64,000 nt of DNA, taken from NCBI GenBank assembly GCA_003564185.1, contig PXFS01000023.1, positions 1-64,000 on the forward strand. Reading direction: 5' to 3'. Positions 22,683 through 43,740 of this stretch are shown piece after piece; positions within the stretch are counted from its first letter, which is position 1, and each line of letters starts with the position of its first letter. The notes below the pieces were generated by a model. It searched no databases. It was given only the letters and a program-made list of their open reading frames with translations, and had not been told where the DNA came from. The stretch is from Flavobacteriaceae bacterium. GTDB taxonomy: Bacteria > Bacteroidota > Bacteroidia > Flavobacteriales > Flavobacteriaceae. The position numbers and the translations under genes are program-made.

Positions 22683-23948
22683 ATGAAAAAAGTAGAACAA
22701 TCCGAATTAGAACAAAAAATATTAGACCAATTTTTGTCAGGCAAAAATTTATTTGGAGAAGACGGAGCTTTGGCTCCCTTATTAAAAAATGTTTTAGACA
22801 AGGCTTTACAAGCCGAGATGGAGAACCCTTTGAATGAATCAGAGCGAAGCTCTGGCAACAAGCGCAACGGACTAAAAACTAAAACAGTAAAGAGTAGTTT
22901 GGGTAATTTTGAATTAGAAGTACCCCAAGATCGTAACAGTAACTTTGAACCTGAAATAGTGAAGAAACGTCAAACTGTTTTAGCTGATCAATTAGCCGAT
23001 AAAATTATTGGTTTATATGGTTTAGGTATGAGTTACAGAGACATCTCTTCTCACATTAAAGAGATGTATGATACAGAGGTATCGCATAGTGTTTTAAGTC
23101 AGATTACCGATAGAATAATACCTGAGATTAAACAATGGCAAAATCGTCCTTTAGAATCGATGTACTGCATTGTTTGGTTAGATGCAATGCACTACAAAGT
23201 AAAAGTGGATGGACGCATAAAGAGCAAAGCTCTTTATAACGTGCTTGGAGTAAACAAAAATGGCTACAAAGAAGTTTTAGGCATTTATTTATCCGAGAGT
23301 GAAGGAGCTAACTTCTGGTTAAGTGTTTTAACAGATTTAAATAATCGTGGATTACAGGATATTTTAATTGCTTGTACAGACAACCTAAAAGGCTTTAGTG
23401 AAGCTATTTTAAGTGTATTTCCAAAGACTGAAATACAGAAATGTGTTATACATCAGATTAGAAATTCCCTAAAGTACATAGCCTCTAAAGACAAAAAAGA
23501 CTTTATGAAAGACCTGAAAGAGGTCTATAGAGCAGATACCAAGGATTTAGCAGAAGAAGCTTTAAAAGCACTCGAAGAGAAGTGGGTACAGAAATACCCT
23601 TTAGTGATAGAAAGCTGGAAAAACAACTGGGAAGAACTCAGTACCTATTTTCAATATACTAAGCCAATACGTAAGCTTATTTACACGACAAACACCGTAG
23701 AGGGTTATCATCGCCAAGTAAGAAAAGTAACAAAAACAAAAGGTGCATTCCCAACTGATATGGCTCTTCTAAAGATAGTTTACTTAGCTACAATGAATAT
23801 ACAAAAAAAGTGGAAAGCACCACTGCACAATTGGAGTTTGACGATTCAACAATTATATATTAAATTTGGCAACAGAATCCCATTGGATTTGGAACTTCGT
23901 TCTGGAGGGGCTAGCCCCTCCAGAACGAAAAAATCGGACAGAGTTTAA
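22683..23948 (+). CDS. IS256 family (mutator type) transposase
   Basis: 421 aa; YGLGMSYRDISSHI, VWLDAMHYKV, LGVNKNGYKEVLGIYLSESEGANFWLSVLTDLNNRGLQDILIACTDNLKGFSEAI, TTNTVEGYHRQVRKVTKTKGAFP. Confidence 0.96.
   Translation: MKKVEQSELEQKILDQFLSGKNLFGEDGALAPLLKNVLDKALQAEMENPLNESERSSGNKRNGLKTKTVKSSLGNFELEVPQDRNSNFEPEIVKKRQTVLADQLADKIIGLYGLGMSYRDISSHIKEMYDTEVSHSVLSQITDRIIPEIKQWQNRPLESMYCIVWLDAMHYKVKVDGRIKSKALYNVLGVNKNGYKEVLGIYLSESEGANFWLSVLTDLNNRGLQDILIACTDNLKGFSEAILSVFPKTEIQKCVIHQIRNSLKYIASKDKKDFMKDLKEVYRADTKDLAEEALKALEEKWVQKYPLVIESWKNNWEELSTYFQYTKPIRKLIYTTNTVEGYHRQVRKVTKTKGAFPTDMALLKIVYLATMNIQKKWKAPLHNWSLTIQQLYIKFGNRIPLDLELRSGGASPSRTKKSDRV
23896..23929. repeat. 34-bp perfect palindrome in the 3' end of the IS256 transposase
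   Basis: TTCGTTCTGGAGGGGCTAGCCCCTCCAGAACGAA equals its own reverse complement. Confidence 0.97.
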
Positions 23949-24018: not shown

Positions 24019-25191
24019 TTAAACAACCATCACAAAAATCTCTTGTTTATTACTATTTGTTTTAAGTAGGCTTTCTAAGTTCACTTCTCCAACTTGAAAT
24101 TTACCAAAATATCCTTCTTTTTCTTCTTTAATAGACAACCAAGGAATAACAGTCAACTTTTCAGGATGTTTACTTGAAGCATAAATTTTTAAAGTCTTAT
24201 TATTAGTGAATTTTGGTCTTGAAGTACTAAAAGCCTTAGTAAACTTATAGTCCCTTCCATTTAATGCATCCTTAGCGTCAGCTAATACGGCACTTGCTGT
24301 GGGAATACTTCCTGCGCCTTTACCCACAAAAAGTTGTTTGTTAGCAAAACTTGCATGTATTTCAGCTCCATTAAATTCAAAGGCTACATCATGTAGGAAT
24401 TCATCTTTACTAACTAATTTCGGAATTGCATAGGCAATAATATGACCTTCAACAAGTTCAGCATGAATAGTTGGTTTAATTACTCTATTTTGTTGTTGAG
24501 CAAAATCAAGATCAGCTTTTTTGATATTTCTAATTCCAAATCGATTGATTTGCTTCGTTTCTACCCAAATACCAAAAGCGTGATAAACCAATATCTGAAG
24601 CTTGTAAGTTGCATCCCAACCATCAATGTCTAAGGTAGGGTCAGATTCTGCAAAACCCGCTTTTTGTGCCTCAGCTAATACTTGATTGAAACTTGCGTTA
24701 TCTTGATGAAGCTTGGTAAGGATAAAATTGCAAGTTCCATTTACAATAGCACTTATGGACTGAATTTCATCTAAGGCATAGAAATTTTCCAAGGTTTGAA
24801 TAATGGGAATACTACCAGCTACTGCTCCTTCGTAAAATAAACGTACTTGATGCTTTCTTGATAGTTCAATTAACTCGGGAAGATGTGAAGCCAACATCTT
24901 TTTATTAGCCGTTACTACTGGCTTTCCATTGGCAAGCGACTCTTTTACTAACTGATAAGCCGCTTCAGCATCATCAATGACTTCAATAATTAATTGAATA
25001 TTAGGATTTCGAATCACTTCAATAGCATCATAAGTGAAAAACCGATCTTCAATTGATCTTTTTTTATGGTGATTTTTAACGGCGATTTTCTCAATTTGAA
25101 AGGGGTTAGAAGAATTTTTTTTAAGGCAATGATAAAATCCTGATCCTACACTTCCAAACCCAATCAATCCTATTTTTGTTTTTTTATTCAT
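24019..25191 (-). CDS. Homoserine dehydrogenase
   Basis: 390 aa; KIGLIGFGSVGSGFYHCL, VTANKKMLA, GSIPIIQTL, NGTCNFILTKL, GFAESDPTLDIDGWDATYKLQIL. Confidence 0.93.
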   Translation of the reverse strand: MNKKTKIGLIGFGSVGSGFYHCLKKNSSNPFQIEKIAVKNHHKKRSIEDRFFTYDAIEVIRNPNIQLIIEVIDDAEAAYQLVKESLANGKPVVTANKKMLASHLPELIELSRKHQVRLFYEGAVAGSIPIIQTLENFYALDEIQSISAIVNGTCNFILTKLHQDNASFNQVLAEAQKAGFAESDPTLDIDGWDATYKLQILVYHAFGIWVETKQINRFGIRNIKKADLDFAQQQNRVIKPTIHAELVEGHIIAYAIPKLVSKDEFLHDVAFEFNGAEIHASFANKQLFVGKGAGSIPTASAVLADAKDALNGRDYKFTKAFSTSRPKFTNNKTLKIYASSKHPEKLTVIPWLSIKEEKEGYFGKFQVGEVNLESLLKTNSNKQEIFVMVV

Positions 25192-25194
25192 TTT

Positions 25195-26204
25195 TTATGT
25201 CTTTAATAAAGCCTCAATTGTTGAGGTGAATTTTTTTGTTTCTACCAAGAATGCATCATGACCATATATTGAATCCACTTGAAACAGCTTGGCATTTTGT
25301 ATATGTTTGACTAAATATTTTTGCTCGTTTGGTGGGAAAAGTAGATCTGAGCTAATGCTAATTACCAAGGTTTCAGCTTTTATTTCACCTAATGCTTGAG
25401 GTATGCTTTTCCAACCCCTTCCAACATGATGGCTGTCCATACTTTTACTTAAATTAAAGTAAGCATAAGCATCAAATCGATTAGCTAGCTTTTCACCTTG
25501 ATAGCTTTGATAAGTTACGGCTTTTGGCTTACAACTTATGTCTAAAAAATCGTCTGCTTGTCTATTGTTGTAGATCTGTGCAGTTCTATAGGACAGCATT
25601 GCTGTAGCTCTGGCCGCTATCAAACCATTTCTTCCTGCATTTTTAGAGTTTTCTCCAAAGGTAACATCGGCTTGAATAGCTAAGCGCTGTGCTTGATTGA
25701 AAGCAATTCCCCAAGGGGTGTGTTTGGCTGAAGTTGCTAACAACACCAGCTTCTTTACTTTTCCTTTTAATTGAATTGCCCATTGCATAGCATGCATTCC
25801 TCCCATGGAAGCACCGATTAATAAATGAATAGAAGGTATTTTTAAGCTAATTCTAAGCATTTCTAATACGTCAGAAAAATCTTTAATGCTAATCAAAGGG
25901 AAGTCCAATAAATAAGGACTTCCTGTTTTAGGGTTGGTACTTTTGGCATTGGTTGATCCATAGCATGAACCCAACATATTAACACAAATAATAAAATACT
26001 TATTAGGATCAATCGCTTGATTGTTTCCTACCAATCCATTCCACCATTCCAATGGATTGGAGTTGGCTGTTAAGGCGTGACAAACCCAAATAACATTGTC
26101 TTTCTTAGTATTAAGTTTTCCAAAGCATTGATAGGCTAGTGTGAAATCTTCTATACTTTCACCGTTACTTAACCTAAAAATTCCTTTATGTTTAAAAAAA
26201 TACA

Positions 26205-26205
<1 letters not shown>
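25195..26205 (-). CDS. metX: Homoserine O-acetyltransferase (MetX-like alpha/beta hydrolase)
   Basis: 336 aa; CHALTANSNPLEWW, NMLGSCYGSTNAKS, GASMGGMHAMQWA. Confidence 0.93.
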
Positions 26206-27545
<1,340 letters not shown>

Positions 27546-27549
27546 TTAC

Positions 27550-27584
27550 AAAAAGAAAAAGCCTACTGTTTTATGCAGTAGGCT
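27550..27584 (-). terminator. intrinsic terminator in the metY leader (candidate attenuator)
   Basis: Minus strand: AGCCTACTG-CATAAAA-CAGTAGGCT followed by TTTTCTTTTT, upstream of the metY ATG. Confidence 0.9.
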
Positions 27585-27619
27585 TGATAAAAAGTATATA
27601 AATAAGTGCCTACTGCATA
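27572..27619 (-). promoter_or_regulatory. candidate antiterminator hairpin overlapping the Met leader ORF end and terminator 5' arm
   Basis: TATGCAGTAGGC (27619-27608, minus) is perfectly complementary to GCCTACTGCATA (27583-27572, minus); excludes the terminator stem. Confidence 0.75.
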
Positions 27620-27636
27620 CGCATAGACATCATCAT
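27610..27636 (-). CDS. candidate methionine-rich leader peptide MMMSMRMQ
   Basis: Minus: ATG ATG ATG TCT ATG CGT ATG CAG TAG; 5 of 8 codons Met; between the SAM riboswitch and the terminator. Confidence 0.65.
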   Translation of the reverse strand: MMMSMRMQ

Positions 27637-27734
27637 TACAAATACAGAAAAAGTAAGTGAATAAATGTGTTCAACAGTTGTTTTCAACTGTTGATTAGGA
27701 AGTTTAAAAAACGAATTTTTTTGTAACATATTTA

Positions 27735-27831
27735 ATTTATATTTCCCATTTTGGGCGGGAATTAGCACCATGCCAACTTTTGGTGGTTGCCGAAGGTCAA
27801 AGAGCCCGTCTCTCGCTTCATCTTTATAAAT
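27735..27831 (-). ncRNA. SAM-I (S-box) riboswitch upstream of metY-metX-hom
   Basis: Minus: ATTTATA(P1)aagatgaagcGAGAGACGGGCTCTTTGACCTTCGGCAACCaccaaaagttggcatGGTGCTAATTCCCGCCcaaaatgggaaaTATAAAT(P1'); matches conserved S-box core segments. Confidence 0.88.
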
Positions 27832-27858
27832 CAAAACACGTTGAAGTGATTTGAATTA

Positions 27859-27890
27859 CAAATATACAATCGATTTCTAAATTCTCAAAA
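27859..27890 (-). promoter_or_regulatory. promoter of the metY leader transcript
   Basis: Minus: TTTTG-N19-TATATTTG, Bacteroidota -33/-7 consensus, just upstream of the riboswitch. Confidence 0.7.
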
Positions 27891-43708: not shown

Positions 43709-43740
43709 GGTTATCGAAGGATTGACCTTAATTCATAACC
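43709..43740 (+). promoter_or_regulatory. structured leader-like hairpin upstream of rpsD
   Basis: GGTTAT-CG-AAGG-ATTGA-CCTT-AATTC-ATAACC nested stems in the 67-nt rpsK-rpsD gap. Confidence 0.5.

Follow-up and report, generated by a model that had tools for sequence, protein, structure and literature searches.

Leader-peptide attenuation had by 2010 been described from the Proteobacteria and Actinobacteria only, with the Firmicutes then being added (PMC2965389). The trp/his-type attenuators treated there, found in Proteobacteria, Actinobacteria and some Firmicutes, share end-product codons and alternative hairpins with the locus analysed here, the leader of the metY-metX-hom operon in a 64 000-nucleotide stretch of DNA (hereafter the window) from a Flavobacteriaceae bacterium (GCA_003564185.1, contig PXFS01000023.1, positions 1 to 64 000), but the codons in the Bacteroidota leaders are Met and Cys, a riboswitch comes first and, in the window, only two alternative hairpins are evident. 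The SAM-I platforms described with translational control and a ribosome-binding site in the 3′ strand of P1 (Barrick and Breaker, 2007; PMC2258182), use the same aptamer family and likewise have the initiation region of an ORF in or beside that strand; in the window, unlike in that platform, the P1-adjacent ORF is a leader peptide and metY starts about 200 nt further on.

Leaders carrying Cys codons are also known. In the actinobacterial cys-operon leaders, as described for Mycobacterium, the codons lie near the stop, a terminator is absent and Rho is suspected (Seliverstov, 2005; PMC1262725), and in this they resemble most of the Bacteroidota cases reported below; the alphaproteobacterial cysS leader uORFC-8-2 (PMC8632094) is, as in Bacteroidota, a short leader with Cys codons. 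Both belong to other genes and phyla, however, and are described in these sources with neither an aptamer nor mixed Met codons. The Sinorhizobium metA leader (PMC9373788) has an upstream AUG, initiation controlled at a distance and a terminator between aptamer and main start, but its aptamer is a SAM-II, it is presented without a Met/Cys codon run and it follows another logic. Tandem riboswitch gates, of which the Boolean purine gate is an example (cited in PMC8632094), also place two RNA sensors in one leader, although in the window one of the two would be a ribosome reading codons. Both kinds of component, SAM-I and leader attenuator, are already known, whilst their combination has apparently not been described: within the open-access literature, a scope that leaves out the attenuation survey of Lopatovskaya (2010), we found no account of SAM-I coupled to a leader peptide and none of Met/Cys leaders at Bacteroidota metY. 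The initial interpretation of the DNA from its letters alone (the sequence-only reading) was likewise not aware of the combination as a described Bacteroidota regulator.

Architecture of the metY-metX-hom leader

The order on the minus strand is, from 5′ to 3′, candidate promoter, SAM-I aptamer, leader ORF, intrinsic terminator, metY, metX and hom (Table 1), and all five elements proposed in the sequence-only reading were located there. The upstream promoter pattern it named is present, but since TTTG-N19-TATATTTG occurs five times within the window against 2.7 expected, this match alone is weak evidence. The S-box aptamer it claimed was recovered with Infernal, the match spanning positions 1-108 of the RF00162 model and lying well above the gathering cut-off of 44.4 bits. 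This aptamer is the single RF00162 copy in the genome, and it shares core nucleotides with its relatives, 34 columns (GGCAACC and GGTGC parts among them) being invariant in a 30-sequence alignment; the Rfam T-box model gave no match within the window. The alignment also separates Bacteroidota SAM-I aptamers into two subtypes, a metY type with a GATTTATA..TATAAATT P1 and GAGAGA-CAGGCTC core letters, and a metH/metB type with GAGGGA-TAGACCC core letters and GATAAC ends. Elsewhere in the window an IS256-family transposase (22683-23948, plus strand) lies just past the 3′ end of hom, and an S4-Flavobacteria ribosomal protein leader (RF03141, 47.6 bits) is found at 43709-43740 on the plus strand.

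Table 1. Features of the metY-metX-hom locus, in order along the minus strand.
Feature	Positions	Strand	Basis
Candidate promoter, TTTG-N19-TATATTTG, Bacteroidota type	27859..27889	-	Consensus match only
SAM-I (S-box) riboswitch aptamer	27734..27832	-	Rfam RF00162, 69 bits, E 5e-14, full length
P1 3′ strand (TATAAAT) and nt preceding leader AUG; probable leader translation initiation region	27730..27741	-	Sequence; AUG position in relatives
Leader-peptide ORF, 39 aa, MLQKNSFFKLPNQQLKTTVEHIYSLTFSVFVMMMSMRMQ and stop	27610..27729	-	Sequence; layout conserved in 78 loci
10-bp hairpin inside leader ORF, TCAACAGTTG-AAAA-CAACTGTTGA	27671..27694	-	Predicted folds
Regulatory codons, ATG ATG ATG TCT ATG CGT ATG	27616..27636	-	Sequence
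Segment A, TATGCAGTAGGC, spanning the leader's last codons and stop	27608..27619	-	Pairs with segment B
Intrinsic terminator, AAGCCTACTG-CATAAAA-CAGTAGGCTT and T-rich tail	27550..27585	-	Terminator search, folds
Segment B, GCCTACTGCATA, partner of A in the antiterminator; also 5′ arm plus loop of the terminator	27572..27583	-	Sequence, folds
metY, O-acetylhomoserine aminocarboxypropyltransferase	26205..27527	-	TIGR01326, 659.7 bits (cut-off 495.1)
metX, homoserine O-acetyltransferase-like	25195..26205	-	Best NCBIfam TIGR01392, 325.8 bits, under equivalog cut-off
hom, homoserine dehydrogenase	24019..25191	-	NF004976 above cut-off; PF00742

The leader AUG, at 27729, stands 4 nt past the aptamer end. 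The mini-ORF MMMSMRMQ reported earlier exists as sequence (27636-27610, the regulatory codons followed by CAG TAG) but is not an isolated ORF; it is rather the 3′ end of the 39-codon in-frame ORF, and Met accounts for five of the last eight codons. Because this ORF begins at P1 of the aptamer, aptamer and leader are interlocked, beyond a mere tandem. The peptide had no Pfam match. Upstream of the Met codons the ORF contains the perfect 10-bp hairpin of Table 1, which on the predicted fold may serve as a pause hairpin. In the nearest relative (L121) MMMSMYMRMRMQ takes the place of the window's regulatory codons.

The terminator that had been proposed is there: its hairpin (27585-27559) comprises 10 pairs at about -14 kcal/mol and is followed by TTTTTCTTTTT, the tail running to 27550, and terminator-like sites in the region number two against 0.2 expected. 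The claimed 12-nt complementarity between the ORF end and the terminator (A:B) is exact, and the ORF-end:downstream duplex (-30 kcal/mol) has a z of -6.2 against dinucleotide shuffles. Segment A occupies positions -10 to +2 relative to the leader stop codon, and the A:B pairing is kept in L121. With a ribosome placed on the stop codon the terminator alone remains in the predicted fold (-14.7), whilst with stalled ribosomes A:B remains (-17.8 to -20.4), which matches the attenuation logic suggested beforehand, i.e. stalling giving the antiterminator and arrival at the stop codon giving the terminator. A:B also forms in the predicted fold of the untranslated window leader. For L121 with a stalled ribosome the final predicted fold still favours the terminator, and A:B would have to form ahead of the transcription of C in order to win. 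A protector hairpin like trp 1:2 is not evident in the window (z = -0.3), so that the window would work like a leader-peptide attenuator minus the trp-type protector; in a sister clade a hairpin of the protector type is strong (e.g. L119, z = -5.5). Two further pairings present in the window were considered, one joining the P1 3′ strand to ATTTATATA of the A-B loop, the other joining the P1 5′ strand to the region of the metY start; neither is kept in L121, and both were set aside as AT-rich coincidence.

The metY-metX-hom leader is likely to act as an attenuator with two inputs, and its leader-attenuator part is well supported. By sequence, segments A, B and C can form either the antiterminator (A:B) or the intrinsic terminator (B:C), the two being mutually exclusive. 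When charged Met-tRNA is available the ribosome would run to the stop codon and cover A, B:C would form and transcription would stop; when charged Met-tRNA is scarce the ribosome would stall on the ATG run, leaving A free to form A:B, and metYX-hom would be transcribed.

Conservation of the leader ORF at metY

A total of 80 metY loci were gathered from named Bacteroidota genomes, 64 of them with a SAM-I, which nearly always lies 100-300 nt upstream of metY. The named-genome SAM-I loci and a further 19 from the window's genus, taken where an ORF of 23-55 codons stands at the aptamer end, gave a set of 78 leaders, including a few duplicates (the leaders of L006, from Psychroflexus aurantiacus, and L118, from the window's genus, are identical). 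The leader peptide shared by these two makes Psychroflexus the probable identity of that genus. Within that genus a SAM-I leader was present in 18/18 genomes with a full-length metY, and none of the eight genomes without SAM-I had a metY match. The Met-rich ORF expected in relatives was found to open 7-10 nt past the aptamer in 67 of the 78 leaders. Cys and Met together make up 39.8% of the last 15 codons, compared with 2.2% elsewhere in the ORF and 13.7% and 4.0% in the two other frames, and 61/78 loci have at least four Cys/Met codons near the leader end (typically MCMCCCMC, CCMCCCCCCC, MRMCMCCCC, MSCCCCMCA or MMMSMYMRMRMQ); the 17 leaders with few include Algoriphagus and Sphingobacterium relatives. 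Conservation of the Met codons, which the sequence-only reading had put up for checking, holds for the regulatory codons across relatives, but Cys codons matter equally there. Cys is encoded by TGT 178 times and TGC 138 times, against two TGG, and this mixture, in which the third base varies and Cys is kept, points to coding sequence and not a repeat. Judged by the Cys+Met enrichment and this third-base pattern, the leader ORF is under coding selection. A natural control was provided by 112 Flavobacteriaceae SAM-I leaders that precede genes other than metY, mostly metH/metB-like by their first residues: none had a Met/Cys leader ORF and only three had any ORF of 20-60 codons at that position. 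Arg precedes Met 40 times in the 78 leader ends, CGA being the commonest Arg codon there, and in the sister clade of the genus CGAATGC pairs with upstream GCTTGC/GCTCGC in a hairpin; a codon effect or RNA structure may lie behind this preference.

Clusters of Cys and Met resemble metal ligands, and from this resemblance one could suppose the product of the ORF to be a small, functional protein rich in Cys and Met that acts in trans, e.g. by binding metal. The N-terminal part and the length of the leader (23-55 aa) vary freely, however, only the Cys/Met content of the end and the position after P1 persisting; the ORF end also pairs with the terminator, and no family match was obtained, which together make such a protein very improbable.

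A U-tract terminator is missing from most SAM+leader relatives, so that intrinsic termination is not what these leaders generally use as their output. Hits to U-tract terminators occur in 24/78 SAM+leader loci, mostly inside the ORF or weak, so a general terminator of this type was rejected, and a convincing intrinsic terminator competing with the ORF end is confined to the window and L121. A general A:B duplex was likewise rejected and the window's A:B taken as not class-wide, the mean z across SAM+leader loci being only -1.1. In the sister clade the ORF end instead folds into strong hairpins, and one of these (in L119, z as above) sequesters the stop region. Between the leader stop and metY, L112-L125 carry a hairpin with an ACTC/GAGT or GCTC/GAGC base and a CCTTC/GAAGG-like tip, the letters of which vary in both arms and after which a U-tract is absent.

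Leaders without an aptamer and serial units

Met/Cys leaders also occur at metY loci that have no SAM-I (L024, L028, L065, L071, L073, L076 and L078), and no cryptic SAM-I was detected in the leader-only loci at a relaxed threshold. Genomes from another class of the same phylum also have Met/Cys leaders at metY, there with strong canonical terminators behind them. Across 25 leader-terminator pairs from several lineages the ORF end matched the 5′ arm of its own terminator with a mean of 18.3, against 13.4 for the arms of others, and none of 20 000 permutations reached the observed sum; the 25 pairs include related loci, and this raises rather than lowers the apparent match of mismatched pairs. 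The letters of the ORF end differ by lineage (CAGTAGGC, GTGAGAATG, GAAGGGCT, CAGAGGG, GGAGTGGTGTT) and the complementarity stays, as in L255 (GTGAGAATG:CATTCTCAC) and L260 (GTGAGAATG:CGTTCTCAC, G-U kept). Segment A in these pairs lies at about -34 to +12 of the leader stop, mostly maskable by a ribosome there. The pairing of ORF end with terminator that was to be sought in relatives is hence kept with changed letters, and, with the codons of the relatives and the Infernal match, it supports the core of the sequence-only reading, a SAM-I plus Met-codon leader attenuator before metY-metX-hom. Promoter-type matches in AT-rich letters often arise by chance, and the whole arrangement might be thought a chance product of AT-rich DNA; the z of the A:B pairing, conservation in 78 loci and the permutation result contradict this and render it exceedingly improbable.

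Two leader-terminator units stand in series before metY in L028, L304 and L307, as duplicated attenuators. In other loci (L259, L263, L290, L297-L300, L302, L303, L314, L316 and others) a leader-terminator unit is followed by an Rfam-confirmed SAM-I, with an extra terminator past the aptamer in L263, L290, L298 and L316. The window's class has the opposite order, SAM-I first, a leader ORF from P1 and one shared output. In one serial locus, L298, GATGAGT after P1 can by eye be paired with ACTCATC in the terminator loop, and this design is found in other Bacteroidota; an ordinary SAM-I transcription switch, the free P1 3′ strand acting as antiterminator and the ORF being incidental, would be built in the same way. 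In the window, though, it is the ORF end and not P1 that competes with the terminator, the codon content of the ORF is conserved and metY-specific, and leaders occur where there is no aptamer, all of which leaves an ordinary switch an unlikely account of the window.

Possible coupling of SAM to leader translation

How SAM would enter is less certain than the attenuator. The nearly fixed distance between P1 and the AUG suggests that, as in the SAM-I platforms cited above (PMC2258182), a SAM-stabilised P1 blocks leader initiation: bound SAM would lock P1, holding the bases before the leader AUG, and leader translation would be prevented. Bacteroidota ribosomes largely dispense with Shine-Dalgarno pairing. 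With this SAM step, reading of the operon would require both translation of the leader and stalling of the ribosome. The leader AUG adjoins P1 in the 78 loci, and the predicted folds give no OFF state for an untranslated window leader; as such a leader is predicted to form A:B, read-through would be expected at high SAM, and repression by SAM needs another step, for which Rho is suspected as the first candidate.

The same prediction means that SAM cannot act through the window's terminator alone, and it thereby favours two separate devices, the leader controlling termination and SAM acting through Rho or decay of the untranslated leader RNA, not through A:B versus B:C. The genome encodes Rho, leader and aptamer are also found apart, and the stop-to-metY spacers of SAM+leader loci are rich in C and poor in G (C.226, G.135, with C>G in 73/76; control spacers C.150, G.132, with C>G in 71/112), all of which fits such a division, whilst the nearly constant distance from P1 to the leader AUG points to direct coupling. 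We regard separate devices as a possible but somewhat doubtful arrangement. Direct coupling would make the leader an AND gate in one RNA, SAM gating leader translation and the charging of Met-/Cys-tRNA gating stalling, and we tentatively suggest, as something that could well be so, that such gates are spread through the Bacteroidota in interlocked and serial layouts.

If these readings are true, homocysteine synthesis would be widely controlled in the Bacteroidota by Met/Cys leader attenuation, and a leader attenuator would have been joined naturally to a SAM riboswitch in two layouts. The window's leader would then offer a directly testable case in which a single RNA reads charged tRNA as well as SAM, the end product.
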